A DNA stretch of 64,000 bases from Rosistilla ulvae (lineage in GTDB: Bacteria > Planctomycetota > Planctomycetia > Pirellulales > Pirellulaceae): contig NZ_CP036261.1 in assembly GCF_007741475.1 (NCBI RefSeq), positions 6,573,798 to 6,637,797 on the forward strand, in the 5' to 3' direction. The notes below the pieces were generated by a model. It saw nothing but the letters and a program-made list of their open reading frames with translations. It had not been told where the DNA came from and did not search any database. The stretch's first letter is position 1. Each line of letters starts with the position of its first letter. Both the position numbers and the translations under genes were made by a program. Below are positions 15,301 through 64,000 of the stretch, piece by piece.

Positions 15301-18300
15301 CGTCACATCGAGCCGATATTGCCCCTTAATCCCCTCGCCACCGATCCCCACGACGACCGCATAAAAGACTCCCGAATCGGTCGCAGTGAACCGCGCCACG
15401 TCGGCCCCTGTCGGTACGGGATTCACTGAGACGACGTTCCCGTCGGCATCGCGAATCTCGATTAACGGCTCCAAAGTGCTCCAGGCCGGAGTTTGAGCGC
15501 GAGCCAAAATCGTCTCTCCCGCCTCGATCACACCGAGTTGGAAGTAGTCCTCGTCGACGTTCCCCGACTGTCCCGCCATCACGGTTCCAACCATCGAACC
15601 ATAACGTGAACTGTCGTCGCCGGACAACGCGAGCAGATCGGCGTTGGAGCGGGTATCGTTGGAGTAGTTTTGATCCGTTTCGATGCTGGAGGAGCGATGC
15701 AAATTGACTCGAACATCGTACTGACCCGCCCCAGCATATCGTTGCACCATAACAAAATAGGTGCCGTCGGTGGGGACCTCCATACCACTCAAATAGCCAG
15801 TGAGATCGGGACCGCTACCGTTATAGTCGCTACCGATCGAAACCACGCGCATTCCATCTTCATGCATCTTGTACAGAAACACTGAGGGCCGGAAACCATC
15901 GCTTTGCGGCTGAACCCATACATCGACGCTGTCCCCAGTCAATGCATCAAAGCTCCACCAATCTTGATCGCTGGTTGGATCGATCGCACCAAACCCAATC
16001 TCACTGCGCAGCCAACCGGTTCCGTTGGTATCGGCTTCGAATCCCAACGGCGTCGCTTTGCCATACTCGCCATTGTCGCGGCCTTCGAAGACACCTTCTT
16101 CGGGAATTGCGTCGACGGTGAAGGTGCGAACAAAATCACCGCCAGCGGTATTGTCGAGATCGCCATCCAATGCGTTGCCCAAGACATCGGTCACGGCGTC
16201 GTCGATCGTCAGCCGATGTTGCCCATCGACTAGCGGACCATCGAGAACCGCAAAGCTAACCTCAAACGCGTCGCTGTCGTATCCGTGGCTCAAGTTGTAA
16301 AGTACATCGTCCCCAGTATCGAGCACGCCATCCTCACCCGCACCACGCAATTCGAGCGTCGCAGCGGACAGCGTTTCGGTGTCAATCGATTCACTAAAAG
16401 AAACGGTAAAAGTGCTGACCAGTTGATCGAGCACGGCCTCCTCTTCGGGCAAACGGCTGACGCCCGCAACCGTCGGCGGTACCAAGTCGCCGATCTCGAC
16501 AGAAAGCAAATACTGCGACAGCATCCCGCCACCGGAAACCGTCGGCGCCCCCGGCTCGGCTGGCACTTCGACGATCCCATAGAGACTCCGCGACTCGTAG
16601 GTCGTGTACCAACTGACATTGGATGAAAATGCGGCATGATTATAGGAGTTTGGATACCCCGGGCCCCAGATTGTGAAATCAACGTCCGAACCGTCGCTCC
16701 ACTGGAACGTTCCCTCACTGGCGACGTCGTTTAAACCGATCCATCTGTTTCCGCCAAAGGTATGATAAAGCAGTCGGGTTTGTTCAGCGTTATCGATCGA
16801 CGCCAAGTGGCCTCCGGCTGCCACAGCCGCCGCTTCCGCATCATTCCAGCCCGAAGCTTGATCGGTAAGCGTAAAACGGCTGCCATCAATCACGGCGGTG
16901 TTGGCCCAAACACGTGCGTAATAGGTACCGTCGCTGGCAAGCGTCCCGTGAAAGATCGCATCGCTGGTATCATCGTCCGGAATAACGGTGCCATCCGCTG
17001 AAACAATTTCCACCGACGGTTCCAGGATCGACCACTCGGGCAACGACGAAGCATCGACGGTGAGAGTCGTACCGGCATTGAGATGACCTAGCTGGTAGTA
17101 GTCGACGTCTCCCTGCTCGGTGATCGTTCCCACGATGCTGGCAGATCTTACGGTGCCGGTTTCGTCAAATGTCAATGCGTTGGCACCACCAATAGAACGA
17201 TTACCATTGTTTTCGTCACGTTCTATTTGGTGACCACGATTGACGTTGATGCGAACCTCATATTGGCTTCCAACGTGATAAATATTGGTTTGCATGCGAA
17301 CGTAGTACGTGCCGTCAGCAGGCAACAGCACGTCCGCGATGTATGCCGTGTTCCCCGGACCACTAGGAGCGTAGTCGCTGTCGAGTGCGACCAAGCCTGA
17401 GCCGTCTTCACGCATCTGGTACAAGGTGAGATAGGGCAAGAAAACACTTCCTTGCGGCTGAACCCATACATCGACGCTGTCGCCAGCCAATGCATCGAAG
17501 CTCCACCAATCTTGATCGCCGCGCGGATCGATCACACCAAACCCAATCTCGCTGCGCAGCCAACCGGTTCCATTCGTATCGGCTTCCAGCGACAGCGGCG
17601 TCGCCTTGCCGTATTCGCCATTGTCGCGGCCTTCGAAGACACCTCCTTCGGGAACTGCGTCGACGGTGAAGCTGAGAACAAAATCACCGCCGGTGGTACT
17701 GTCACCGTCGCCATCCAACGCGTTGCCCAAGGCATCGGTCACGTCGTCACCGATAGTGAAGCGGTGCAAGCCTTCCAATATCGGACCATCGTGGACCGTG
17801 AAACTAACCTCAAACGCGTCGCTGTCGTATCCGTGGCTCAAGTTGTATAGTACATCGTCCCCAGTATCGAGCACGCCATCCTCACCCGCACCACGCAATT
17901 CGAGCGGCGCAGCGGACAGCGTTTCGGTGTCAATCGATTCACTAAAAGAAACGGTAAAAGTGCTGACCAGTTGATCGAGCACGCCCTCCTCTTCGGGCAA
18001 ACGGCTGACGCTCGCAACCGTCGGCGGAACCAAGTCGCCGATCTCGACAGAAAGCAAATACTGCGACAGCATCCCGCCACCGGAAACCGTTGGCGCCCCC
18101 GGCTCCGCTGGCACTTCAATGATCCCCTGAAGGCTGCGAGACTCGTAGGTCGTGTACCAACTGACATTGGATGAAAATGCGGCATGATCATAGGAGTTTG
18201 GATACCCCGGGCCCCAGATTGTGAAATCAACGTCCGAACCGTCGCTCCACTGGAACGTTCCCTCACTGGCGACGTCGTTTAAACCGATCCACTTGTTTCC

Positions 18301-21300
18301 ACCAAAGGTATCGTAAAGCAAGCGAGTTTGCGCAGCGTTATCGATCGACGCCAAGTGCCCTCCGGAAGCAACAGCAGCCGCTTCCGCATCATTCCAGCCC
18401 GAAGCTTGATCGGTAAGCGTAAAACGGCTGCCATCGATCACGGCGGTGTTGGCCCAAACGCGTGCATAGTAGGTGCCGTCGTTGACAAGCGCCCCGTGAA
18501 AGATCGCATCGCTGGCATCATCGTCCGGAACAACCGTACCGTCCGCGGAAACAACTTCCACCGTCGCTTCGAGGATCGACCAATCAGGCAATAACGAAGC
18601 ATCGACCGTGAGCGTCGTACCGGCATTAAGATGACCTAGCTGGTAGTAGTCGACGTCTCCCTGCTCCGTGATCGTTCCCGCAATATCGACCGAACGCACG
18701 GAACTATCCTCAGAAAACACCAGAGGGTCGGCGCCGCCAATCGATCGATTGGCATCGCCGACATCGGTTTCGATTGCATGGCTGCGATTCACATTCACCC
18801 GGACATCGTACTGACCCGCCCCAGCATATCGCTGCACCATAACAAAATAGGTGCCGTCGGTGGGGACCTCGATGCCACTCAAATAGCCAGTGAGATTGGG
18901 ACCGCTACCGTAATAATCGCTACCGATCGAAACCACGCGAGTTCCATCTTCATGCATCTGGTACAGAAACACTGAGGGGCGGAAACCATCGCTTTGCGGT
19001 TGAACCCAAACATCGACGCTGTCCCCAGCCGACGCATCGAAGCTCCACCAATCTTCGTCGCTGCTTGGATCGATCGCACCAAACCCGATCTCGCTGCGCA
19101 GCCAACCGGTTCCATTCGTATCGGCTTCCAGCGACAGCGGCGTCGCCTTGCCGTATTCGCCATTGTCGCGGCCTTCGAAGACACCTCCTTCGGGAACTGC
19201 GTCGACGGTGAAGCTGAGAACAAAATCACCGCCGGTGGTACTGTCACCGTCGCCATCCAACGCGTTGCCCAAGGCATCGGTCACGTCGTCACCGATAGTG
19301 AAGCGGTGCAAGCCTTCCAATATCGGACCATCGTGGACCGTGAAACTAACCTCAAACGCGTCGCTGTCGTATCCGTGGCTCAAGTTGTATAGTACATCGT
19401 CCCCAGTATCGAGCACGCCATCCTCACCCGCACCACGCAATTCGAGCGGCGCAGCGGACAGCGTTTCGGTGTCAATCGATTCACTAAAAGAAACGGTAAA
19501 AGTGCTGACCAGTTGATCGAGCACGCCCTCCTCTTCGGGCAAACGGCTGACGCTCGCAACCGTCGGCGGAACCAAGTCGCCGATCTCGACAGAAAGCAAA
19601 TACTGCGACAGCATCCCGCCACCGGAAACCGTTGGCGCCCCCGGCTCCGCTGGCACTTCAATGATCCCCTGAAGGCTGCGAGACTCGTAGGTCGTGTACC
19701 AACTGACATTGGATGAAAATGCGGCATGATCATAGGAGTTTGGATACCCCGGGCCCCAGATTGTGAAATCAACGTCCGAACCGTCGCTCCACTGGAACGT
19801 TCCCTCACTGGCGACGTCGTTTAAACCGATCCACTTGTTTCCACCAAAGGTATCGTAAAGCAAGCGAGTTTGCGCAGCGTTCTCGATCGACGCCAAATGA
19901 CCTCCGGAAGCAACAGCAGCCGCTTCCGCATCATTCCAGCCCGAAGCTTGATCGGTAAGCGTAAAACGGCTGCCATCGATCACGGCGGTGTTGGCCCAAA
20001 CACGTGCATAGTAGGTACCGTCGCTGGCAAGCGCCCCGCGAAAGATCGCATCGCTTGCATCATCGTCCAGAACAACCGTACCGTCCGCGGAAACAACTTC
20101 CACCGTCGCTTCGAGGATCGACCAATCAGGCAATAACGAAGCATCGACCGTGAGCGTCGTACCGGCATTGAGATGACCTAGCTGGTAGTAGTCGACGTCT
20201 CCCTGCTCCGTGATCGTTCCCGCAATATCGACCGAACGCACGGAACTATCCTCAGAAAACACCAGAGGGTCGGCGCCGCCAATCGATCGATTGGCATCGC
20301 CGACATCGGTTTCGATTGCATGGCTGCGATTCACATTCACCCGGACATCGTACTGACCCGCCCCAGCATATCGCTGCACCATAACAAAATAGGTGCCGTC
20401 GGTGGGGACCTCGATGCCACTCAAATAGCCAGTGAGATTGGGACCGCTACCGTAATAATCGCTACCGATCGAAACCACGCGAGTTCCATCTTCATGCATC
20501 TGGTACAGAAACACTGAGGGGCGGAAACCATCGCTTCGCGGTTGAACCCACACATCGACGCTGTCCCCAGCCGACGCATCGAAGCTCCACCAATCTTCGT
20601 CGCTGCTTGGATCGATCGCACCAAACCCAATCTCGCTGCGAAGCCAACCGGTTCCATTTGTATCGGCTTCCAGCGACAGCGGCGTCGCCTTGCCATATTC
20701 GCCATTGTCGCGGCCTTCGAAGACACCTGCTACGGGAACTGCGTCGACGATGAAGGTACGGTTGTATCCCGCGCCACTCTCCATCGCGTTGCCGACCTGG
20801 TCGGTGACCGTACTGGAGATAGCAAAACTGTAAGTGCCGTTGTCGAGTGGTCCATCGGTGATTTCAAAATCAATCCGCTTGGCAGCATCGTCGTAGTTGA
20901 AATCCAGATCGTATCGAACATCGTCCGTCGTGTTAAACTGACCATCCGCGCCCCAACTGCGAAGATCGAAGACCGTCTCCGAGAGCGAACCGACCAGCAG
21001 AGCTTCCGTGAAGTCGATCGAAAACGTGGAGAACAAGGTGTCTGAGTTTGGCTGCCCCCCAGGCAAGCGATCGAAGCTTGCGACACGCGGGGGCACGGTG
21101 TCGTTAATTGTCGCGGTGACCGCATACTGTGAATTGGGGCCCTCGCCCGATTCCGCGCTGACGCGGATGAAATACTCGGAGTCGACTAACGTGGTGCCAT
21201 CGAACGACGCGTGCGAGGCATTGGTGTCGATGACCGGCGTGCCGGTGGCGTCGAGCAGTTCGACATTTGGCGACAAATCGCTCCATTCGGGGACCACCGA

Positions 21301-21963
21301 ATCGATCGAAACCGCTTGCCCAGCGTTCATGAAACCGATCCCAAAAAGATCCTCATCCCGGTTGGTCCCATCGGTTGCGGAAATCGTGCCGGCGATCATC
21401 CCCGACAAGGTATTTCCCGCGATGGCCAATTCGATCGGATCGGCATAATAAATCGAATCGTTTCGTTGATTTGGGTCCGATTCAAACGCAAGGTTGCGGG
21501 CGATGATCGCGTCGATCTGGTAATCGCCCGACGTAGAGGCGTTGTCCCCCACGATCTCGATAAAGTAGGTACCGCTCGAATCGATCGACAGCGTCGATGT
21601 CAGGCTTGAATGCCCCGGCCCCGAATCGCGATCTTGGGCGATAACAGTGCCCGCGCTGTTGCGGACATAAATTTCTGGATCGACTCCCGACCCCAAATCG
21701 CTCACGCTGACCGAGACTCGATCGCCAGCGAACGCTGCGAAACGAAAGAAATCGGATTCCCCCGCTTGCAACTCCGCCTCGACGCTGCCACGAATCAGCG
21801 ACGGAACGGCCGTGGAAACTTGTAGCGACAGCTCGTTTGCCAAATCCCGCGTGTCGTTCGGCTCGGATTCGAGATCCGCCGCTAACAGCCGCCGGTCCTC
21901 TAATTGCTGAGCCTGTAACTTCCGACGCTTGACGAGTCGTTTTGACGATCGTTTGCCATACAC
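6316..21963 (-). CDS. Giant surface protein (5215 aa): PPC-like, C-type-lectin-like, CARDB, Calx-beta-like and dockerin domains
   Basis: GTG at 21963 follows a good ribosome site (AGAGGTGAG at 21968-21976). The basic N-terminus ends in LEDRRLLAAD (residues 21-30), the planctomycete export-type motif. A PPC-like domain follows (about 33-160), then three near-identical 514-516-residue units (414-927, 928-1441, 1442-1957) and a partial fourth. Each full unit holds PPC-like segments, a cysteine-free C-type-lectin-like domain (GGHLASI, WIGLND, EGTFQWSDGS, WGPGYP) and an Ig-like module. Then come CARDB modules (about 2225-2340, 2350-2470, 2885-2990) around Calx-beta-like repeats (2470-2880), a Gly/Pro linker near 3590, a Cys-bearing helical segment near 3620-3745, many Ig-like modules, and two dockerin calcium loops (DVNHDGLVTPLD, DVTGDGNSTPLD; about 5036-5100). 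A cell-surface adhesin or matrix role is inferred. Confidence 0.9.
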   Translation of the reverse strand: MYGKRSSKRLVKRRKLQAQQLEDRRLLAADLESEPNDTRDLANELSLQVSTAVPSLIRGSVEAELQAGESDFFRFAAFAGDRVSVSVSDLGSGVDPEIYVRNSAGTVIAQDRDSGPGHSSLTSTLSIDSSGTYFIEIVGDNASTSGDYQIDAIIARNLAFESDPNQRNDSIYYADPIELAIAGNTLSGMIAGTISATDGTNRDEDLFGIGFMNAGQAVSIDSVVPEWSDLSPNVELLDATGTPVIDTNASHASFDGTTLVDSEYFIRVSAESGEGPNSQYAVTATINDTVPPRVASFDRLPGGQPNSDTLFSTFSIDFTEALLVGSLSETVFDLRSWGADGQFNTTDDVRYDLDFNYDDAAKRIDFEITDGPLDNGTYSFAISSTVTDQVGNAMESGAGYNRTFIVDAVPVAGVFEGRDNGEYGKATPLSLEADTNGTGWLRSEIGFGAIDPSSDEDWWSFDASAGDSVDVWVQPRSDGFRPSVFLYQMHEDGTRVVSIGSDYYGSGPNLTGYLSGIEVPTDGTYFVMVQRYAGAGQYDVRVNVNRSHAIETDVGDANRSIGGADPLVFSEDSSVRSVDIAGTITEQGDVDYYQLGHLNAGTTLTVDASLLPDWSILEATVEVVSADGTVVLDDDASDAIFRGALASDGTYYARVWANTAVIDGSRFTLTDQASGWNDAEAAAVASGGHLASIENAAQTRLLYDTFGGNKWIGLNDVASEGTFQWSDGSDVDFTIWGPGYPNSYDHAAFSSNVSWYTTYESRSLQGIIEVPAEPGAPTVSGGGMLSQYLLSVEIGDLVPPTVASVSRLPEEEGVLDQLVSTFTVSFSESIDTETLSAAPLELRGAGEDGVLDTGDDVLYNLSHGYDSDAFEVSFTVHDGPILEGLHRFTIGDDVTDALGNALDGDGDSTTGGDFVLSFTVDAVPEGGVFEGRDNGEYGKATPLSLEADTNGTGWLRSEIGFGAIDPSSDEDWWSFDASAGDSVDVWVQPQSDGFRPSVFLYQMHEDGTRVVSIGSDYYGSGPNLTGYLSGIEVPTDGTYFVMVQRYAGAGQYDVRVNVNRSHAIETDVGDANRSIGGADPLVFSEDSSVRSVDIAGTITEQGDVDYYQLGHLNAGTTLTVDASLLPDWSILEATVEVVSADGTVVPDDDASDAIFHGALVNDGTYYARVWANTAVIDGSRFTLTDQASGWNDAEAAAVASGGHLASIDNAAQTRLLYDTFGGNKWIGLNDVASEGTFQWSDGSDVDFTIWGPGYPNSYDHAAFSSNVSWYTTYESRSLQGIIEVPAEPGAPTVSGGGMLSQYLLSVEIGDLVPPTVASVSRLPEEEGVLDQLVSTFTVSFSESIDTETLSAAPLELRGAGEDGVLDTGDDVLYNLSHGYDSDAFEVSFTVHDGPILEGLHRFTIGDDVTDALGNALDGDGDSTTGGDFVLSFTVDAVPEGGVFEGRDNGEYGKATPLSLEADTNGTGWLRSEIGFGVIDPRGDQDWWSFDALAGDSVDVWVQPQGSVFLPYLTLYQMREDGSGLVALDSDYAPSGPGNTAYIADVLLPADGTYYVRMQTNIYHVGSQYEVRINVNRGHQIERDENNGNRSIGGANALTFDETGTVRSASIVGTITEQGDVDYYQLGHLNAGTTLTVDASSLPEWSILEPSVEIVSADGTVIPDDDTSDAIFHGTLASDGTYYARVWANTAVIDGSRFTLTDQASGWNDAEAAAVAAGGHLASIDNAEQTRLLYHTFGGNRWIGLNDVASEGTFQWSDGSDVDFTIWGPGYPNSYNHAAFSSNVSWYTTYESRSLYGIVEVPAEPGAPTVSGGGMLSQYLLSVEIGDLVPPTVAGVSRLPEEEAVLDQLVSTFTVSFSESIDTETLSAATLELRGAGEDGVLDTGDDVLYNLSHGYDSDAFEVSFAVLDGPLVDGQHRLTIDDAVTDVLGNALDGDLDNTAGGDFVRTFTVDAIPEEGVFEGRDNGEYGKATPLGFEADTNGTGWLRSEIGFGAIDPTSDQDWWSFDALTGDSVDVWVQPQSDGFRPSVFLYKMHEDGMRVVSIGSDYNGSGPDLTGYLSGMEVPTDGTYFVMVQRYAGAGQYDVRVNLHRSSSIETDQNYSNDTRSNADLLALSGDDSSRYGSMVGTVMAGQSGNVDEDYFQLGVIEAGETILARAQTPAWSTLEPLIEIRDADGNVVSVNPVPTGADVARFTATDSGVFYAVVVGIGGEGIKGQYRLDVTVSDELSVPDLVVSAIDLPSPVSAGEQVTVSWTVGNFGTAATDATSWVDRVILSANDTINDFDDIVLGNFVRDVPLSANQTYDAELTVSLSQRLAGPYHLFVQTDFRNDLFEFVLDDNNLTQSATPWQIGPAPLPDLVVPVESMVAPTQIDPEAEFSVAWRTENVGAVPAPGGWVERVYIADSSSGQNRQLLGLFTHDEDLAAGSSTATRTETFQLPAGSFAGDVYFVVEVDATDSIYESDETNHFVATTASDVRTLLSFISTSTEIEEGGAQARITLVRNGSTAHPLSVSLQADVANQIDYPREVIIPAGRSRVTFYVSASEDAIVDGDRAVQISATATDFDVAEASFDVIDRDRATITATLSETNVLEGDSTTLTVSHNGLGTSDVVVRITATPSNQIDFPAAVLIPAGQTSVDVTATVTDDSIFESAGTIVIDGKSAGYVAGRADLNVPASDVPTLQIDIPSTMAEGDDAIGTITLDAVRDQPVHVLLNSDAAGLFVLPTLTIPAGARSAQFSMLAIENSDVDAARSIAVMAAPVTDFNSAAIADAAVIANVSLLDNDGPTLSAWIDRGVISENGIATLTVSRNTDTSGALVVSLLADDSGELAVPATVTIAAGERSATVAVQGLEDSVADGDQNVQVTAAADGFNSGLVNVIVSDLDLPDLVVASLEIPAEIDPGSRPTLHWSVANLGIAAATDGWTERIYLSSDPQFGNDTLLAEHRFSGPLSVDASNGRSVPVTFPDTPGEFWVIVEVDGEQTLREGIDANNRFVSPTPILLRPSYTATVSAEIESAAAGTAVTLAGSAANTDGTPAALVDVVVHITVRGTTRTLDARTDANGNFQTLFTPLSGEAGRYAVAASHPALSAPMSQDTFDLHGLVPTAGFDFIGLPAGSSTTQSITIRNLADLPLTGLSITTVDVASGLSVTPSVPASNVAASGSFDLTYDLTDLSADQGASQFVLRVSTNEAPALEIPITVDVIAPQASLAFEQSTLETSMVVGEQTSVELVIENRGVADSGPIELFLPAEAPWMSVISGRTIENLPAGDKLTVTLMLQPSIDLELGSYRGSIVASSEAGDIAVDFDFRATAETVGELRVTVVDELFYFAEGAPTVRDAAIELRDAITRALVATNAAVAARAAGESAGTVTVDDDGAIRFSDVPRGKYIVQVSADSHDPNEVLLEIPAGDVADEQIFISRNFVEYTWTVEEVEVEDRTRVTIEAVFETNVPAPVVVVESNIDLSALSNPGDTQTFEVKYTNEGFIQAEAVEIFFDEHPYYEIAPLVNEIPILPARSTATIPVRVTRRVVAGPPPEGESAGSLPDADCHIDGYTIYRYECGPNGVWKRVPIAVIGVDGNCAPGGGAHSPGGGGTFVGTGLGSGPSAGGPSFGGKTGDGVPPGLPPDPVFSGPPPAIPQAPSSCDACLEEVGEQARDYLIGKIPFAGEITMAMGFGDSVQDVADAVAGNDSFDKNDAKSLTKTALGFVALFPSPWGMAARGVLTAWDAYDSLYPLLTKCAGLFGFGPSAPVTPLEGEAAAVGPAVQVAASRLQELLDFYQAFSAPEQYLYGSAEFIGVSQSLERLSWVADVKSLTLNATENFQRISSDDRQLLIDHAHRPDAVSDEEVDRFVDRINRSIDYWDAGVFTTEDLPEGANGDFIDLKHWGGLMQEAETAYSEFGEQSMAALDSAIDDTVLELLNAMNGHSDDGVCAAVRLQITQDVVQTRQGFQATLGIANQTTSPLNAVIAEVVVLDRTGNDVSELFGVQVIASEGFDINGGSATIGIGGDGTTTWLIVPSTEAAPLGATEYFVAGSFQYDQFGLTVKETLLPTAITVLPQPELVLDYFLQRDVVSDDPFTDAVEPAEIFTLGAQVRNHGVGIARDLRIESAQPKIIENEKGLLIDFEIVGTSVNGEPAQRTLTAEIGDLAGGELAIAQWQLEASLQGLFTEYEASFEHISDFGRPDLSLVKSVEIHELIRPVQATASGVDDRLSDFLVNDIPDVQDLPDTLYLSDGSVQEVQLGSDAQFDPNASPWSLVVDVSATMPDGWGYLRLQDPSDGNHELIGIRRSDGSLLASENFWQTDRTFIGLGKRPVYENVVHLLDFDSTGEYQFVYSNGDRQGPVVERFSGVSPNPTDRAIDVIDVHFDEPIDPATLLRDAITLLKNGVPLDTPTLAISANLNPTLRLSGLGALTADDAVYELHIELASVRDLSQNPAQGVASLTWVKGEAAPAVIEVSGLPSAIATTAVDSFQIQVTESVQLASLQTALSIQRDGNPIDLSSASFHLVSEGLYEVSGLNALTATDGDYQVSIDAARLIDLDGLFGFGSTSKIWTLDTTAPQITDLFAPPTNPRNIVVQRIDVQFSEPVDLTSLGVDDLRLVRDGAAENLIAGDSRVTIEDRGDNVYRIAGINWVQGFIADPQIADFTFTIHGSEIQDLAGNSGSGSLSTTWTIDLVSPTVPTDMALAVEPATDGTSTSAANAVFSGTVDENGLTLVIENEYTGDELFRGTLNDRQFSIPLRLPSEGRNELSGRLIDNAGNTTDFPLPDAFTNLLPPTVVETSGFKPTIRATAIDAFSVTFAKPIRPETLTRDVLTLWRDDTAVPLPAGLTIDASADAFILTISGLRSATADEGAYRLSIDLSGVRSTDGLAGTGTYSERWMVDTTPPTTRVVSTPLESTARRYLLSVESDPSQGTSSPISEFQVYAASENSPLRLVAQLEPESPATEFSSELNEEHLFFSDSIDAAGNQQRLSIGSTGQFPIRLDGDALAGLPDDLTFETGTEFEFSGEWTVQPPVLVDGGLVHQVQHGVRLLNVQTSTPWSNPVLVWDVNHDGLVTPLDALQIINRLNRISGMGDVKLPQPEGGTDHRYYDVTGDGNSTPLDALRVLNALNRRNFGEVGESESLAAAALNPWAPLVASQGLVEPAWTVDHQQSLIGDSFALPERDLANPLESQEVDAFFFDHSNLDDDDDEETQLLELLFEAGRLGLDKWNGALLGHVGPR
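16093..20724 (-). repeat. Three tandem coding repeats of 1542/1542/1548 bp inside the giant gene
   Basis: Unit 1 is 19183-20724, unit 2 is 17641-19182 and unit 3 is 16093-17640, each starting at the VFEGRDNGEYGK sequence in protein order. A partial fourth copy follows from 16092 down to roughly 15640. Units 1 and 2 are identical over long stretches (for example 17606-18300 against 19148-19842). Unit 3 has diverged more in its first third, and all are in frame. Sequence identity at synonymous sites indicates recent duplication or ongoing gene conversion. Confidence 0.93.
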
Positions 21964-57131: not shown

Positions 57132-57400
57132 CTATCGTGGGAATTGAATCCGACCGAACGCCCCAAACCGACACTCCAGGGATCCAGGAGCTTGGGAAAC
57201 GTTACGTCACCGCAACGAACAGCGCAACCAAATGGGGAGTTCCGAACGGATGCCTTCCCCAAGATCCGAACGACTTCAACGGTTGCGGTGACTTTCCCGA
57301 TTATCGCAACCTGCTGGATTGTTCGGAGAATCGGACTTGGATCTGGCCAGCTCTAACATCTCTAGGCAATCCGGTTGTTCGGGATGGTCAGATTGATCCG

Positions 57401-59782
57401 ATGTTGACTGAGACGAACGTGAACCGACATCCGGCCTCACTCACAGGCGTTTCCGTGCAGAAGATCCCATTCAGTCGCTCGATCCAAACGATCAGCCGGC
57501 ATTGCGTTATCGCAATGGGGATTGTTACGCCATGGATGAATGTCGCCGCGGAACCGCCCCAACGGTTGCCTCGAATGGTGGCCACAGGGATCGAACCGGC
57601 CGCCGATGTTCCCCAACGCCTACCGACACCAAGTCTTAGCCCGACAGATTCGGAAGAACCACGGGTGATCGGTGAGACTCCCGAACCGGCGAACCTGCCG
57701 CGGGTCCCCGGCCCTGCGGTGAACCCGGTGCCCTCGGTCGCACCAGCCACTCGCACCCCATTGCCCCTTCGCTTGCCTCCGGCAAGCCCTGCGCCGACGC
57801 CACGACGGTTGCCGCACACGAAACCGGTGGCGGAACCAAACGAAGAGCAATCCGCAACGATCACCGAGCCGGAGCCGATTGGAGCGCCTGCGCCGAACGG
57901 ACCATCCGATCCACCCAGCTTGCGTCCTCAATCGAATCCTCCGCAATCGATTGGTTCGCAAAAGAACTCACCAACCGGCAGCGAGCCAATCCGCCTGGTG
58001 GAGCCCGACGTCGATAGCGCCAGCGAAGAACCAACACCGAGTTCCTATCCTTCGACCGGCATGTCACTGGAACTGCCTCGGCAACCGCGGCCGGCCGTTG
58101 CAACGCCGACGCTCAAGATCGCTGGCCATCACGCGCTCCCCGACCAGCTGCCGCCGATGTGGTGGAACGCGGAAGTTCGGCAATCGGTGGGCATCGGTCC
58201 GGCAACGCTGCCGATCTCGATCGATCGGTTGGTGCAATCCGCTTTGGCCAACTCCACACAAATCCAATCGCTACTTACCGAACCACGGATACGGCGGGCA
58301 ACGGTCGCTGTCGAACAGGCCCAGTTCGATTGGCAGTCATTTGTCGAATCGCAATTCGATGATAAAAGCGACCCGATCGGAAGCATCTTGACGACCGGTT
58401 CGGCAGACGGTCGGTTTGAAGACAAAACATGGTCGGCCGCGGCGGGACTGCGTCAAACAAACCGAATCGGCGGCAAACTGGAACTGGCGCAGAACGGCGG
58501 TCACCAACGCAATAACTCGCAATTTTTGATCCCCAATCCACAGGGGACAACACGGCTGGAAGTCAACTACACCCAACCGCTGCTCAGTGGCGCCGGTCGG
58601 TTTGTCAACGAGAGCCGGATCGTGCTGGCACAGCTCGATTACCGGGCCACCAACGATCGCACGCAGGCTCAGATCCAAGACCATCTGATCGATGTCACCA
58701 ACGCCTATTGGGAACTTTATCTGGGGCGCAGCCATCTGCTGCAACGCCGCAAGCTGCTCGAAAGCGCTCGCCAAATCTACGACACGTTGCGGGCCCGCGA
58801 AGGGGTCGACGTGTTGCAGCGTCAAATTTTGCGAGCCCAGGTTGCGGTCACCGGCCGCGAAGCGGAAGTGATTCGCGCCCAGACAGAGATCCGCAATTCG
58901 CAATCCCGGCTGCGACGTTTGATCAACGATCCCGAACTGGTCGCCGCGATGCAACTGGAATGGACACCCCAAGACCAACCGTTAGACTTCCGCATCGACA
59001 TCTCGGCCAGCGCGTCGGCGCAGATCGCCCTCGCCTCGCGACCGGAGATTGCCGAAGCGATGCGACGCGTCAAAGCACTTTCGGTGCAAGCGGATGTGGC
59101 GCGCAACGAGATCCTGCCGCGGTTGGATCTGTTGTTGCGAACCTACGTCGCCGGACTGGAAGACAATGCCGACACCTTGGGATCGTGGAACCGTCAATGG
59201 ACCGATGGCCGGCCAACCTATGGAGTCGGCATGTTGTATGAGTTCCCGATCGGAAACCGCGCGGCCAAGGGACGCCTGAAACGCAGCCGCTTGGAACTGA
59301 CCCGCGAGATCCTCGACTTCGAATCGACGATCGAACAGACCTTGTTGGAAGTCGATATTGCGGTCCGCGAAACCCAAACCGCCTATCGCGAAATGGTCAG
59401 CAAACAGAATGCAGTTTTTGCGGCCGCGGCAGAAGTGCAATTCCTCGACGAACGCTGGCGCACGCTGCCGACTCAGCAAGACTCCGCCGTGTTGCTGCTG
59501 GAAAATCTGCTCGACGCCCAGCAGAGGTTGGGGAACGAAGAAGCCGCCTACGCCACGGCTCAAGTAACCTATGCCCTCTCCTGGATTTCGCTGCGTCGAG
59601 CCATGGGGACGCTGTTGTCGATGGATCAGGAACCGATCGCTGAAATCCCATCCCCTGGGGCTCCGGATGCTGCGGTATTTGAGGATCCAGCAGCAACGTC
59701 GGATGAACAACCGGTGCGTTTGCCAGCGACCGCGCGAGCTATCTACGATCGCCATCGACAGCCGGGAGCCATGTTGCGATGA
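57401..59782 (+). CDS. TolC-like outer membrane efflux protein with Pro-rich N-terminal extension
   Basis: From ATG 57401 the product has 793 residues; the frame is open to GTG 57137 but only the later start gives a signal-like N-terminus (CVIAMGIVTPWMNVAA, cleavage near 53). A Pro/Arg/Thr-rich extension (about 55-250) precedes the TolC fold (about 270-750), which has two coiled repeats, for example ARAQTEIRNSQSRLRRLINDP-like and TLLEVDIAVRETQTAYREMV segments, and barrel strands such as RTYVAGLEDN. It would form the outer membrane channel of a tripartite exporter. Its TGA overlaps the ATG of the SecA-like gene (ATGA). Confidence 0.85.
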   Translation: MLTETNVNRHPASLTGVSVQKIPFSRSIQTISRHCVIAMGIVTPWMNVAAEPPQRLPRMVATGIEPAADVPQRLPTPSLSPTDSEEPRVIGETPEPANLPRVPGPAVNPVPSVAPATRTPLPLRLPPASPAPTPRRLPHTKPVAEPNEEQSATITEPEPIGAPAPNGPSDPPSLRPQSNPPQSIGSQKNSPTGSEPIRLVEPDVDSASEEPTPSSYPSTGMSLELPRQPRPAVATPTLKIAGHHALPDQLPPMWWNAEVRQSVGIGPATLPISIDRLVQSALANSTQIQSLLTEPRIRRATVAVEQAQFDWQSFVESQFDDKSDPIGSILTTGSADGRFEDKTWSAAAGLRQTNRIGGKLELAQNGGHQRNNSQFLIPNPQGTTRLEVNYTQPLLSGAGRFVNESRIVLAQLDYRATNDRTQAQIQDHLIDVTNAYWELYLGRSHLLQRRKLLESARQIYDTLRAREGVDVLQRQILRAQVAVTGREAEVIRAQTEIRNSQSRLRRLINDPELVAAMQLEWTPQDQPLDFRIDISASASAQIALASRPEIAEAMRRVKALSVQADVARNEILPRLDLLLRTYVAGLEDNADTLGSWNRQWTDGRPTYGVGMLYEFPIGNRAAKGRLKRSRLELTREILDFESTIEQTLLEVDIAVRETQTAYREMVSKQNAVFAAAAEVQFLDERWRTLPTQQDSAVLLLENLLDAQQRLGNEEAAYATAQVTYALSWISLRRAMGTLLSMDQEPIAEIPSPGAPDAAVFEDPAATSDEQPVRLPATARAIYDRHRQPGAMLR

Positions 59783-61707
59783 GGCTGTTGCACAACCGCT
59801 GTCGGTCGACCCCATCGCTCCGCGACCTGCCGAACCACGTCGCCGCGATTCGCGATGCCCAATCGGCAATCCAACGATCCGATCGTGAAACGCTGCGAGC
59901 TCATACGTTGCAGCTGCGCGAGTTTGTGCAGCGTGGAGCGGAGGTTGCTAGCCCCAAAGTGCTTGCCTTGGGAGGAGCCCTCGTTTGCGAAGCGGTCGCC
60001 CAAGTGCTGGGCAAATCTCTGTACGATGTTCAGCTGACCGCTGGCATCATCCTGGCGCATGGCGCGGTCGCCGAGATGCAGACCGGCGAAGGCAAGACGC
60101 TGTCGGGCTTGATGCCCGCCGTGCTCCACGCCTTGTCTGGCCGCGGCGTTCATGTCGCCACGCCCAACACCTACCTAGCGACACGCGATTTCGAGACGCT
60201 GCGCCCCGTGATCGAACATCTGGGGCTGACCGCCGGTTGTCTGAGCGACGACGCCGACCATGGCCAGCGCGCTGCCGCCTATGAATGCGATATCACCTAT
60301 GCCCCTGGATACGCGTTTGGCTTTGATTATCTACGCGATCAAATGGCGTTGCGGTCGACGGCCGGAGGTCGCTTGGGAGACCAATTGCGACAACGTCTTC
60401 GCGGCGCAGCGAGCGAGACGCAGTTGCTGCAGCGCGGCCGGCACTGCGCGATTCTCGACGAAATCGATCACGTGCTGGTCGACGATGCGACCAGTCCGTT
60501 GATCCTCAGCGCCGCCGGGGATCGCGAAGCCCCCGACGCAGCAATCCATCAAGCGGCGAAGCAAATCGCTGCAACGCTCTCGGCAGAAGAACATTTCCAG
60601 ATCGCCCCCGATGGCAGCGGTCTGGAACTGCTGCCCGCCGGAATCGAAGCGATCTACGACGATTCAGCCCCCACCGGCGACCCACAACTGCGACGCGCGT
60701 GGCACGAATACGTCCATCTGGCGCTCCGCGCCACTCACCAATTCCATCGCGATGTGCATTACATCGTGACCGCGGACAAGGTCCGCATCATCGACGCTTC
60801 CACCGGCAGGGTCTTCGACGATCGAACCTGGAACGATGGCCAGCATCAAGCGATCGAAGCCAAGGAGGGCTTGCGGATCACGACCGAACAGACAGCGCTG
60901 GCGCGGATCACGCGTCAACGTTTCTACCGCATGTACGATGTGTTGTGTGGAATGACGGGAACGGCTGCCGGATGCGCCGCGGAGCTGAACGAGTTCTATC
61001 ACCTGTCGGTCGTTGAGGTCCCCTTGCGCGTGCCAAGTCGCCGGCGGACACTCGCATCGGTTCGCTGTACCGACATCCAGGAAAAGCGAAACCGCATCGT
61101 CGATGAAGCGCGAAATTGTCAACGGCGCGGGCAACCGGTTCTGATCGGAACCCATTCGATTGCCGAAAGCCAACAACTGGCCGAACGGTTCGAAACCGAA
61201 GGCCTTCGATTCGAACTGCTGAACGGAAAACAAGACGCCGACGAAGCGGAGATCATCGCCGCCGCAGGCCGTTGCGGAGCGATCACGATCGCAACCAACC
61301 TGGCGGGACGCGGAACCGACATCCACTTGGATGCGGATGCCGCCGCGGCCGGCGGGCTGCACGTGATCATCACCCAGCACCATGCAATCGATCGCGTCGA
61401 TCGCCAACTGATCGGCCGTTCCGCCCGCCAAGGCGATCCCGGAAGCGTCCGTTTTTATTATGCCCTGGATGATCCGCTGATTCGCCAAGCCCCTTGGATC
61501 GCGCGTTGGCTAGAACGCCAGATCGCCAATCCGAGCGATCACAGCGATCGCGACTCGCAGCGTCTGGCCAACATGATCGCCAAGCTACAGGTCCAGCACC
61601 AACGGCGACAAGCGAGCCTCCGCCGCGATCTTTTGCAAAAGGATCTGGCCACGCAGAACTTGATCGTCAAACCGCGTACCCGAAGTGCACAAGGTATCGA
61701 AAAATGA
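59779..61707 (+). CDS. Shortened SecA-like ATPase in an exporter operon
   Basis: The 642 residues hold SecA motor motifs: DVQLTAGIILAHG (83-95), Walker A MQTGEGKT (100-107), AFGFDYLRDQM (179-189), Walker B ILDEIDHVLVDDATSPLILS (225-244), a preprotein-crosslinking-type insert, TNLAGRGTDI and QLIGRSARQGDPGSVRFYYA in the second motor lobe. Normal SecA is about 840-900 residues; this one ends within the helical scaffold and lacks the wing, the rest of the scaffold and the C-terminal zinc linker. Substitutions (DEIDH for DEVDS, GRSARQ for GRSGRQ) mark a divergent paralogue rather than the housekeeping SecA. Both ends overlap neighbours by four bases. Confidence 0.9.
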   Translation: MRLLHNRCRSTPSLRDLPNHVAAIRDAQSAIQRSDRETLRAHTLQLREFVQRGAEVASPKVLALGGALVCEAVAQVLGKSLYDVQLTAGIILAHGAVAEMQTGEGKTLSGLMPAVLHALSGRGVHVATPNTYLATRDFETLRPVIEHLGLTAGCLSDDADHGQRAAAYECDITYAPGYAFGFDYLRDQMALRSTAGGRLGDQLRQRLRGAASETQLLQRGRHCAILDEIDHVLVDDATSPLILSAAGDREAPDAAIHQAAKQIAATLSAEEHFQIAPDGSGLELLPAGIEAIYDDSAPTGDPQLRRAWHEYVHLALRATHQFHRDVHYIVTADKVRIIDASTGRVFDDRTWNDGQHQAIEAKEGLRITTEQTALARITRQRFYRMYDVLCGMTGTAAGCAAELNEFYHLSVVEVPLRVPSRRRTLASVRCTDIQEKRNRIVDEARNCQRRGQPVLIGTHSIAESQQLAERFETEGLRFELLNGKQDADEAEIIAAAGRCGAITIATNLAGRGTDIHLDADAAAAGGLHVIITQHHAIDRVDRQLIGRSARQGDPGSVRFYYALDDPLIRQAPWIARWLERQIANPSDHSDRDSQRLANMIAKLQVQHQRRQASLRRDLLQKDLATQNLIVKPRTRSAQGIEK

Positions 61708-62612
61708 GCATCTCCAATACGTTCGTCCAGATCGGGCTGGTCTCGTTGGTTCTGACGGGGACCATCGTCAGCGGCGCCCATGCCCAGGAATCGAACTCCG
61801 CGATCGAAGGTATCATCGAGCCCTATCAAACGATCCAAATCCCTGCGACCGAAGTCGGCACGCTGGCTCGCATCGACGTTCGCGAAGGGGACAAGGTCCG
61901 AAAAGGACAGACGTTGGCACAGGTCGACGATCGCGTCTTGCAGGCCTCGCTGGCCGCGGCTCGCGTCGCCAAAGATGCCAAAGGGAACCTTCGCGTTGCA
62001 CAGGCGGAACGCGATGTGAAACGTCGCCAACTGGCCTGCCTGGAAGAACTGCGGAATCGCGGCAACGCGACGCAGCGCGAGACCGATCGAGCCCTCGCCG
62101 ATTTCGAATCGTCCGATGCGCGTTTGCAAGCGGTCAACGAAGACCTTGAGATCCGCCGTTTTGAATACGAACGGATTTTGGCGCAGATCGAAAAACGTGT
62201 GCTGCAATCTCCCATCGACGGCGTGGTCGCAAACATCAACAAAGATGCGGGAGAGTTTGTCGCGCCGACCGATCCGATCGTGATGACGATCGTTCAACTG
62301 GATATCGTGCACGCAATCTTCTCGCTGCCAATCTCGGCCGTCAGTACGATTGTGCCGGGCAAAACCGTTCGCATCACCGTCGGACTGAACGACCTGCCAG
62401 CCCAGGGTGTGGTCGAAACGATCGCCCCGATCGCCGATGCCAAAAGCGGAACGGTCCGCGTCAAGATTCGGGTCGCCAACCAAAACGGACGCATCTTCAG
62501 CGGCAGCAGTTGCCGCTGGGAGATCGATGCCAACACGCCCAATCAAATTACCAGCGTCCCCAGTCGCGGAGCGATCATGGCCGAAGCGACTCGCAAAATG
62601 AAAGACCGTTAA
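61704..62612 (+). CDS. Periplasmic adaptor protein (HlyD/RND membrane-fusion family)
   Basis: ATG 61704 overlaps the SecA-like stop (ATGA). The 302-residue product has a signal peptide (IGLVSLVLTGTIVSGAHAQ). A split lipoyl domain follows (IEPYQTIQIPATEVG to KVRKGQTLAQVDD and QSPIDGVVANINKDAGEFV), with a short coiled-coil hairpin (about 80-155) between its halves, then a beta-barrel domain (DIVHAIFSLPISAVS, GVVETIAPIADAKSGTVRV). It would bridge inner and outer membrane parts of an exporter with the TolC-like protein. No inner membrane transporter follows directly; instead a second, membrane-anchored adaptor does. Confidence 0.9.
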   Translation: MSISNTFVQIGLVSLVLTGTIVSGAHAQESNSAIEGIIEPYQTIQIPATEVGTLARIDVREGDKVRKGQTLAQVDDRVLQASLAAARVAKDAKGNLRVAQAERDVKRRQLACLEELRNRGNATQRETDRALADFESSDARLQAVNEDLEIRRFEYERILAQIEKRVLQSPIDGVVANINKDAGEFVAPTDPIVMTIVQLDIVHAIFSLPISAVSTIVPGKTVRITVGLNDLPAQGVVETIAPIADAKSGTVRVKIRVANQNGRIFSGSSCRWEIDANTPNQITSVPSRGAIMAEATRKMKDR

Positions 62613-62635
62613 CGCCAGCAGAGCCACAAACCGGC

Positions 62636-64000
62636 ATGACTTCCATCGTCGACGCACCATCGAATCACCCCAACCGCGGCAGCCTGTCGACGGCCGGCGA
62701 CGCCGCGCTTTCGAACGCGGGTGAATCGCAAGCGTTGGCGGCGGCGTTGGAGTTGATGATCCAAATGGAAGCGATCGACGATCTCTCGTCAGCGGCGACG
62801 GTTGCCGGCGACGTGATCGGCGAATTCTGTCGGGCGCGGCGCGTTGTCGTCGGTTGGTGCCGCGACGGCACACCGACCTGCGAAGTGATCGCGGACACCG
62901 ACGCGACGGCCCACGACCCCGCCAGTCCTATCCATCGCAAGCTGCAGTTCGCGTTGGACGAGATCATCGTTCGCGGACAGACGGTCGAACTGGACGTTCC
63001 GGCGAATCTTGGCCAACCCTCGGCAGCACTCGCTCTGCGCCAGTTTGCGTTGGCGGTCGGTTGCACCCGATTGGCCGGATCGCCGTTGTCCGATGCCACA
63101 GGTCAGATCCGCGGCGCGTGGTTGTTTATCGATCCGGCCGAACAGATTGAATCCTTGCGGACGCCCCATCTGATCGATTCGTTGTCGCGTCCCCTGGGCG
63201 CTCGTCTGGCAACGATCTGGCGTCATCAGCCGGGCAGACTCGATCGCGCCCTCGATACGGTTCGCGATGCGTTTACGAACAGCCGCGGATCGGTTGCGAT
63301 CGCTGGTTTGATGGTGCTGTTGTTTGTGATGCTGTTTCCTATCCACTACTCCGTTCGCTGCGATTGTGCATTGCAGCCGGTGTCGCGTCGCTTGATCGCC
63401 GCGCCGTTTGACGGATCGCTGGAAAAGTCGTTTGTCGACCCGGGCGACCTAATCGACGAGGGAGCCCTGTTGGCGCGGATCAGCGCCCGCGAACTGAACT
63501 GGGAACGGGCCGGGCTGCAGGCAGAACTGAATCGATCCAACAAAGAGCGACAGGTCTCGCTGGCCAAACAAGACTATGCAGCCTCCCAGATCGCGCAGCT
63601 CGATTCGCAACAGGTCGCCCACCGGTTGCAGATGATCGAAAGCCGGATCGAACATCTCGATATCCGCAGCCCCTTCAAGGGTGTTGTGATCGCGGGCGAC
63701 ATCAAAGAGGTCGAAGGGGCCCCGTTGGAAACAGGGCAGACGTTGTTCGAGATCGCCCCGGTCGGCGAGATGATTGTCGAACTGAGGATCCCCGAAGCGG
63801 ATTTTGCCTACGTGCGTCCTCAGATGCCAGTCCGTTTACGGTTGCATGCCTTTCCGACTCAACGGATCGAAGGCGTTGTGGAACAAGTGCATCCCAAAGC
63901 CGAAGTGATCGACAACGAAAATGTGTTTGTCGCCAAGATCCGCATCGAAGATCCGCACGCTATCTATCGTCCTGGAATGCATGGCCGCGCGTCGATCCAA
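62636..64000 (+). CDS. Membrane-anchored HlyD-type adaptor with GAF-like N-terminal domain (continues past window)
   Basis: ATG 62636 starts 455 codons that remain open at the window end. Residues 30-195 form a cytoplasmic alpha/beta domain resembling GAF (for example VVVGWCRDG, CTRLAGSPLSDATGQIRGAWL). One transmembrane helix follows (about 219-238, VAIAGLMVLLFVMLFPIHYS), then a lipoyl-type half (LIAAPFDGSLEKSFVDPGDLIDEG), a coiled-coil hairpin (about 285-340), the second lipoyl half (DIRSPFKGVVIAGD) and a barrel (about 375-455). The adaptor part faces the periplasm. The GAF-like call is weak and there is no signal peptide, so the N-terminus is likely cytosolic. It belongs to the TolC/SecA-like operon. 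Confidence 0.82.
   Translation, partial: MTSIVDAPSNHPNRGSLSTAGDAALSNAGESQALAAALELMIQMEAIDDLSSAATVAGDVIGEFCRARRVVVGWCRDGTPTCEVIADTDATAHDPASPIHRKLQFALDEIIVRGQTVELDVPANLGQPSAALALRQFALAVGCTRLAGSPLSDATGQIRGAWLFIDPAEQIESLRTPHLIDSLSRPLGARLATIWRHQPGRLDRALDTVRDAFTNSRGSVAIAGLMVLLFVMLFPIHYSVRCDCALQPVSRRLIAAPFDGSLEKSFVDPGDLIDEGALLARISARELNWERAGLQAELNRSNKERQVSLAKQDYAASQIAQLDSQQVAHRLQMIESRIEHLDIRSPFKGVVIAGDIKEVEGAPLETGQTLFEIAPVGEMIVELRIPEADFAYVRPQMPVRLRLHAFPTQRIEGVVEQVHPKAEVIDNENVFVAKIRIEDPHAIYRPGMHGRASIQ

Follow-up and report, generated by a model that had tools for sequence, protein, structure and literature searches.

A SecA-like, TolC, HlyD and M50 operon of Rosistilla ulvae as a probable exporter of surface proteins with an N-terminal LExRxLL motif

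We analysed a stretch of 64,000 nucleotides from the planctomycete Rosistilla ulvae (contig NZ_CP036261.1; hereafter the window), at whose right-hand end lies an operon encoding a TolC-family channel, a truncated SecA-like ATPase, two HlyD-type adaptors and, just past the window edge, a fusion of an M50 metalloprotease with HlyD (M50-HlyD). The best reading of the data is that this module is a dedicated exporter of surface proteins carrying the motif LExRxLL: the window operon is probably one of several exporters in the genome, of the kind that Kamneva et al. described, and proteins with an N-terminal LExRxLL, many of them giant, are probably its cargo class. The observations that support this directly are the gene order, the co-occurrence and adjacency of operon and cargo genes, the conserved residues of the ATPase and the metalloprotease, and the weak hydrophobicity of most N-termini of the cargo. 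That the module is functionally linked to LExRxLL proteins is very likely, and an export role, judged from sequence, likely; as for the truncated SecA, we lean towards its being the motor. The cargo linkage is firmer than the motor role, because the truncated SecA is absent from several otherwise complete-looking loci.

Results

Organization of the operon

The window holds the following four genes of the operon:

57137..59782, + strand: TolC-family outer-membrane channel (OEP, 9.3e-25, in two stretches)
59779..61707, + strand: truncated SecA-like ATPase, 642 residues (Pfam SecA_DEAD, 4.8e-86; P-loop_SecA; SecA_PP_bind)
61704..62612, + strand: periplasmic HlyD/RND-type adaptor, 302 residues (HlyD_D23, 1.8e-18; RND_mfp, 139.6 bits, cut-off 94.9)
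62636..64000, + strand: HlyD adaptor of the GAF-HlyD orthologous group, 479 residues (HlyD_D23, 1e-19)

The TolC and SecA genes overlap by 4 bases, as do the SecA and HlyD genes, and 23 bases separate the two HlyD genes, so that our coordinates agree with the four consecutive genes and junctions proposed in the initial annotation of this DNA. The channel has 881 residues when read from the GTG at 57137 and 793 from the ATG at 57401, the start chosen in that annotation; it is 49% identical to its orthologue in locus L053 across 495 columns. Both adaptors match HlyD_D23/HlyD_3 in Pfam, and the N-terminus of the 302-residue one resembles a signal peptide when its sequence is read. The second HlyD gene overruns the window edge by 75 bases, with its stop at window position 64075, and a fifth gene, encoding the 724-residue M50-HlyD fusion, starts at 64080, 80 bases beyond the window edge on the genome. 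The initial annotation had thus rightly expected the operon to continue past 64000, possibly with a membrane peptidase, but the GAF-like head that it gave to the membrane adaptor was not borne out: no GAF domain was detected in this protein even at E<=5, and the domain is present in some of its orthologues (L036, 3e-10; L104, 3.4e-4). Domain scans found no ATP-binding cassette (ABC) transporter family among the five operon genes.

A scan of genome contigs by M50 similarity yielded 301 relatives, of which the best 80 loci were sampled, many of them on short contigs. M50 was found in 79 of these 80 loci, GAF-HlyD in 77, HlyD in 61, TolC in 34 and truncated SecA in 29. The order TolC-SecA-HlyD-GAF/HlyD-M50 is kept in 21 of the 80, a recurrence of the full order that argues against chance. 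The initial annotation had let its proposal depend on the genes being kept together; they are in many genomes, though in family f3 SecA and M50 lie mostly apart in the genome. In the R. ulvae genome there are five M50 loci, with TolC in the fetched stretch for the window and for the second and third copies (L010 and L035) and none for L009 and L033.

Co-occurrence of M50-HlyD and LExRxLL proteins

M50-HlyD is present in 57 of 195 Planctomycetota genomes and in 29 of 232 genomes of Gammaproteobacteria. The latter count omits matches of 118 bits or less, most of which, among those listed, cover the HlyD part only (those in G211, G230, G374 and G413 do extend into the M50 part), and it includes one fragment (G343). 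As markers of the cargo we used NF012209 (LEPR-XLL) and PF07595 (Planc_extracel) and, since these two proved too narrow (25 and 11 of the 195 genomes, respectively), alignments of our own, A4 and A5. A4 describes class A, in which a basic stretch is followed by LExRxLLA and whose genes are scattered through planctomycete genomes; A5 describes class B, LE[D/P/E]R[I/V/L]L[F/Y]SA.P, which is the operon-linked kind in Planctomycetota. A5 consists entirely, and A4 in part, of sequences that neighbour M50 loci or belong to M50-positive genomes, and their sensitivity may thereby be biased toward M50-positives; the independent markers are NF012209 and PF07595.

In Planctomycetota LEPR-XLL (E<=0.01) was found in 24 of the 57 M50-positive genomes, which span 12 families, against 1 of the 138 M50-negative ones (p = 4.6e-14, Fisher test ignoring kinship). 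PF07595 gave 9/57 against 2/138, class B 23/57 against 2/138, and two or more class-A matches 28/57 against 1/138; class A as a whole was found in 48 genomes, 37 of them M50-positive. Any of the four models matched 45 of the 57 M50-positive and 13 of the 138 M50-negative genomes. In the M50-negative genome with LEPR-XLL (G087) the motif lies at residue 679 of 952, and the match in G040 is antisense to a called gene; both exceptions look like chance. Within single families the LEPR-XLL contrast was 2/2 against 0/15 in f24 (p = 0.007) and 5/6 against 0/2 in f4 (p = 0.11).

The association recurs in a separate phylum. Among the 232 genomes of Gammaproteobacteria, LEPR-XLL (E<=0.001) was present in 16 of 29 M50-positive and 2 of 203 M50-negative genomes (p = 4.7e-15, again with kinship ignored), and counting G211, G230, G374, G413 and G398 as M50-positive changes this to 16/34 against 2/198 (p = 1.4e-13). 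Fifteen of the 16 double-positive genomes belong to a high-scoring M50 subtype, whose cut was set after the scores had been seen. Finally, LEPR-XLL was found in 10 of 13 further genomes picked for M50 (9 of the 13 Verrucomicrobiota) and in none of 14 control genomes. PF07595 at E<=1 also matches 5 of 14 control genomes, none above its cut-off.

Linkage of operon and cargo genes

In many planctomycete operons a large class-B gene adjoins TolC divergently. An open reading frame with the motif (by regular expression) was found at 18 of the 34 TolC-bearing loci, or 21 of all 80 loci, against 3 of 20 control windows drawn from genomes other than those of the 80 loci (p = 0.006), and strict class B at 18 of the 80 loci against none of the controls.

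Nine of the 16 double-positive genomes of Gammaproteobacteria have their M50 and LEPR-XLL matches on a single contig, and in three of these (G256, G298 and G405), where that contig measures 1.9 to 4.4 Mb, the two matches lie only 11 to 34 kb apart. In stretches L191-L194, L197, L206 (by eye) and L210 the giant gene stands after, before or within the operon, L197 having it inside. About half of these stretches were chosen for a shared LEPR/M50 contig, so that adjacency there serves as illustration and 9/16 is the unbiased figure. Thirteen records of alphaproteobacterial plasmids were also matched; in nine of the ten inspected the nearest large upstream gene encodes more than 2500 residues. NCBI names three of these giants LEPR-XLL, and the motif stands in five of the six N-termini read. 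Five plasmid loci (L236, L238, L239, L240 and L243) have a small DUF3467 gene upstream of HlyD and M50, and in four of them it comes straight after the giant gene; its product is a candidate dedicated chaperone.

Candidate cargo in the R. ulvae genome

Most LExRxLL proteins lack a hydrophobic signal peptide: a hydrophobic peak of 2.0 or more was reached by 4 of 56 cargo N-termini, against 45 of 61 HlyD adaptors. Basic charge is strong in the N-termini of class A and mostly lower in class B. Two of the three class-B matches in this genome lie beside other TolC operons. Next to the second copy (L010) is a divergent gene whose product exceeds 2600 residues, contains DUF4347, RTX and cadherin domains and starts with a LEDRVMFDG motif, and next to the third (L035) is a gene for a protein with the motif LEDRILYSA. 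The third match is unlinked:

L231:5461-13080: unlinked class-B protein, 2539 residues, LEDRVLFSATP

The window operon has no adjacent cargo gene. That there are three TolC operons and three class-B proteins suggests that the unlinked protein belongs to the window operon, and it is the likeliest dedicated cargo of that operon, by analogy with the LEPRLLFSATP genes that adjoin the orthologous operons in L053 and L059. The slot where several orthologous operons have a cargo gene is taken in the window by a hybrid histidine kinase-like gene (54564-57131, a reading of the sequence), divergent from TolC and a possible regulator.

PF07595 has 40 matches in this genome at E<=1, 12 of them above cut-off and many in giant frames. 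One of them lies in the window:

6316..21963, - strand: 5215-residue protein with LEDRRLLA at its N-terminus (PF07595; CARDB, C-type lectin, Ig-like and PPC domains)

Judged by its sequence, this protein is a candidate cargo of the LExRxLL class, unlinked to the window operon; it scored 31.8 bits against PF07595 (cut-off 25.5) in the genome search and 24.1 bits in the protein scan. Still larger frames occur elsewhere: in a Verrucomicrobiales metagenome-assembled genome (that of L106), one contig (G197:C57:111702-167891) holds two LEPR-XLL frames of 18,544 and 16,801 residues.

The truncated SecA

The 642-residue protein comprises the first nucleotide-binding domain, the preprotein-crosslinking domain, the second nucleotide-binding domain and the beginning of the scaffold helix. 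The wing and the C-terminal linker are lacking, as the initial annotation had held: the Pfam scan lists no SecA_SW (wing/scaffold) family for it, and the SecA profile alignment to B. subtilis SecA ends at about residue 608. The two-helix finger, which we take to lie in the part of SecA beyond that point, should also be missing, because the profile ends there. The motifs read in the initial annotation are retained, with their key residues invariant in an alignment of 28 truncated SecAs: G103, G105, K106 and T107 of Walker A, D227-E228, G510-R511-G512 and I515 of GRGTDI, and R550, G552 and G555 of RQGDPGS. The AlphaFold model (pLDDT, the predicted local distance difference test, 85.9) had SecA 1tf5 as its best Foldseek match (E = 1.2e-47) and superposes on substrate-engaged SecA 6itc_A with a TMq of 0.86.

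Six SecA_DEAD proteins are encoded in this genome, one housekeeping SecA of 1232 residues and five short ones of 585 to 690 residues, and the initial annotation's question of whether the window protein is the genome's only SecA is thereby answered in the negative. In a tree of 59 rows, rooted at the midpoint only, the housekeeping protein clusters with ten other canonical SecAs (100/100), and the window SecA falls outside that canonical clade, paired with the relative from Rubripirellula in L053 (100/98) within a 22-row clade (100/100) that includes the L010 copy. By model cut-offs it belongs neither to housekeeping SecA nor to SecA2. It scored 502.5 bits against the housekeeping model TIGR00963 (cut-off 800) and, against the SecA2 models, 412 (TIGR03714, cut-off 930), 412.7 (TIGR04221, 725), 499.2 (TIGR04397, 1085) and 350.7 (NF012136, 1100); all eight SecA and SecA2 models listed for it stay under their curated cut-offs.

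A truncated SecA (frame below 800 residues) was found in at least 39 of the 57 M50-positive Planctomycetota genomes. In the 138 M50-negative genomes the sole frame below 800 residues among the matches listed is that of G026, whose 762-residue protein stands inside the canonical clade. Open-frame length was used here in place of counting extra copies by match number, which was abandoned since a single canonical planctomycete SecA may give two matches.

Three further short SecA genes of R. ulvae (L008:7101-9173, L011:8506-10263 and L009:8087-9937) form a separate clade closer to canonical SecA; an M50-HlyD gene comes immediately after one of them, and the stretches fetched for the other two contain no M50 gene. 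In public records NCBI annotates truncated SecAs as 'prepilin peptidase' (L236:16177-18093, L237:17059-19083) or 'DEAD/DEAH box helicase' (L238, L243). At the SecA position of one gammaproteobacterial locus, L208:11016-12923 scored merely 135 bits against the truncated SecA model and is perhaps degenerate or diverged.

The M50-HlyD protein and a possible route of export

The M50 residues H206, E207, H210, N300, N302, L304 and D308 are invariant in 39 sequences. The daptide metalloprotease model is matched by all 39 M50 proteins and the YydH/LiaK model by 38 of them (E<=0.01). The scores shown stay below the curated cut-offs: 152.6, 162.1 and 176.3 bits where the cut-off is 300 (162.1 being the score against NF041824), and 34.4 against NF058609 (cut-off 225). 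A Foldseek search with the M50 model returned HlyD-type adaptor proteins only, among the 50 matches listed. NCBI names several M50 proteins PqqD family proteins or PqqD family peptide modification chaperones.

We infer export and its direction, the motor role, and the recognition and cleavage of the signal, along the following lines. Recognition of the cargo N-terminus would take place on the cytosolic side of the membrane, perhaps through the small domain with which the M50-HlyD fusion begins. The truncated SecA would feed the unfolded chain into a passage across the inner membrane, with the fusion and the GAF-HlyD adaptor at its core; at loci that lack the truncated SecA another motor, such as the housekeeping SecA, might act. 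The cargo would then pass through HlyD and TolC to the cell surface. Removal of the signal may fall to the M50 active site, and such trimming is plausible because the metal-binding positions are invariant and all 39 proteins match the daptide metalloprotease model.

Discussion

Several observations weigh against a dedicated exporter of LExRxLL proteins. None of the four models found a motif in 12 of the 57 M50-positive Planctomycetota genomes, and some motif was found in 13 of the 138 M50-negative ones, that of G094 looking real; in Gammaproteobacteria, G273 and G396 have LEPR-XLL and no M50, G273 being probably incomplete, because no SecA at all was found there. The large Fisher tests treat genomes as unrelated. 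One plasmid giant, in Alisedimentitalea, has no motif at its annotated start. At 20 M50 loci of families f3 (16) and f4 (4) the strict expression found no motif neighbour and the loose one three, two of which look spurious, and at another 16 M50 loci four had motif neighbours. The truncated SecA is not universal either: it adjoins M50 in 10 of 19 fetched gammaproteobacterial stretches and was found in 2 of 14 further M50-positive gammaproteobacterial genomes, and it is missing from G405, which has both M50 and LEPR-XLL and whose M50 contig measures 4.1 Mb, and from the Thalassospira plasmid locus (L239). Conversely, the planctomycete G013, which has no M50-HlyD, has two SecA matches (C158:116671-118482 and C142:57226-58671) in frames of 831 and 906 residues. 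Lastly, the M50 N-terminus shows a weak resemblance to PqqD (2 of 38, with a best E of 0.075), and this domain had no PDB profile match.

Local linkage as a general rule we reject, since the strict count of 0/20 at f3/f4 loci is below that of class-A genes in control windows (3/20). The linkage belongs to TolC-type operons with class-B cargo and to Proteobacteria. The M50/HlyD loci with a giant neighbour L210 (G352), L198 (G405) and L239 (Thalassospira) possibly represent a SecA-less subtype.

Of the alternatives, a variant of accessory Sec has the best case, although we consider it rather unlikely. Here the truncated SecA would feed the cargo to ordinary SecYEG, and HlyD, TolC and M50 would act later, in outer-membrane passage, trimming or anchoring. 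SecA2 serves large adhesins in Gram-positive bacteria, the window protein has the SecA fold throughout, SecA and SecA2 are its closest sequence families, and at loci without the truncated protein the housekeeping SecA may serve. Against such a route, all eight listed SecA and SecA2 models leave the window protein under their cut-offs, its wing and C-terminal regions are missing, and a hydrophobic core is mostly absent from the cargo N-termini. Improbable, in our view, is a module for signalling, or one like a type I secretion system (T1SS), with unspecified cargo, the link to LExRxLL proteins reflecting a shared surface lifestyle or ancestry. The window operon without adjacent cargo, the f3/f4 loci without local linkage and the neglect of kinship in the main tests would all fit this explanation, but it accounts poorly for the same association in Planctomycetota, Gammaproteobacteria, the single family f24 and the Verrucomicrobiota-rich extra genomes, for the adjacency on alphaproteobacterial plasmids and for the cargo gene within the operon at L197. 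Most improbable is maturation and export of a ribosomally synthesized and post-translationally modified peptide, a small peptide that M50 would trim and that would exit through HlyD and TolC: it could explain the matches to the daptide (39/39) and YydH/LiaK (38/39) models and the PqqD names at NCBI, yet the M50 scores shown stay under the curated cut-offs and the recurring neighbour is a giant protein, although no search aimed at small precursor genes was made.

We therefore retain dedicated export around the truncated SecA as the best reading, in keeping with the initial annotation's candidate export system, which was, however, wrongly called undescribed. Kamneva, Poudel and Ward described the locus type in 2015 (PMC4452313): in the parts of that paper available to us, secondary SecA_DEAD proteins without SecA_SW stand beside HlyD, GAF-HlyD, M50 and sometimes OEP, a T1SS-like role is discussed, SecA is proposed as the ATPase and M50 as a possible membrane pore, and the broader biological role is termed completely unknown. 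The terms cadherin, giant, adhesin, DUF4347 and hemolysin are absent from its main text as available, and 'substrate' appears once, in a general sentence on T1SS. The motif has a literature of its own. PMC8567305, in the passages available, repeats the view of Studholme (2004) that it is a novel export signal and counts 52 carriers in Tuwongella immobilis; these passages name no exporter, and SecA and HlyD are absent from the main text. A giant LEPR-XLL protein in a Vibrio is mentioned in the part of PMC10868602 available. The available portions of PMC10952558 and PMC10066038 have no bearing on the exporter, and those of PMC8277102 have SecA or M50 in three places, none describing a SecA-driven tripartite exporter. 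In open-licence PMC, which excludes preprints and most subscription papers, we found no paper joining the LExRxLL signal and the locus.

What is new here is the cargo assignment, which ties a locus type known since 2015 to LExRxLL surface proteins and so joins two orphan observations, the SecA/HlyD/M50 locus and, as far as the sources available to us go, a planctomycete N-terminal motif seen since 2004 as an export signal. If true, it explains the route by which many of the largest surface proteins of bacteria reach the outside, the motif becomes usable for cargo prediction, and the likely job of the operon becomes testable by deletion and a reporter. More tentatively, the module may represent a separate class of diderm secretion, with an N-terminal LExRxLL signal and without a Sec signal peptide or an ABC pump, in which the truncated SecA would drive giants in one step through an intramembrane-protease/HlyD conduit and TolC, in Planctomycetota, Verrucomicrobiota and Proteobacteria; we can see this whole proposal failing as readily as holding, or slightly more so.

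Among known systems, accessory Sec (SecA2/SecY2) resembles the window operon in having a dedicated SecA paralogue tied to large adhesins; it differs in that the operon has no SecY2 among its five genes, a shorter SecA domain set, and TolC and HlyD parts. Type I secretion (HlyB-HlyD-TolC), of which LapBCE is the version for giant adhesins, shares the HlyD adaptor, the TolC-type channel and very large surface proteins as cargo. Unlike it, the window operon has no ABC transporter, and the signal proposed here is N-terminal, whereas that of T1SS is C-terminal. The signal on the proposed cargo is the same as that of the PF07595 motif and LEPR-XLL (NF012209). With the locus of Kamneva et al. (PMC4452313) the operon agrees as follows: the window has a SecA_DEAD protein without SecA_SW, separate from the housekeeping SecA and neighbouring HlyD and M50, and the phyla, in the parts of that paper available, overlap; to this locus the present analysis adds a cargo class, an N-terminal signal and tests of co-occurrence.

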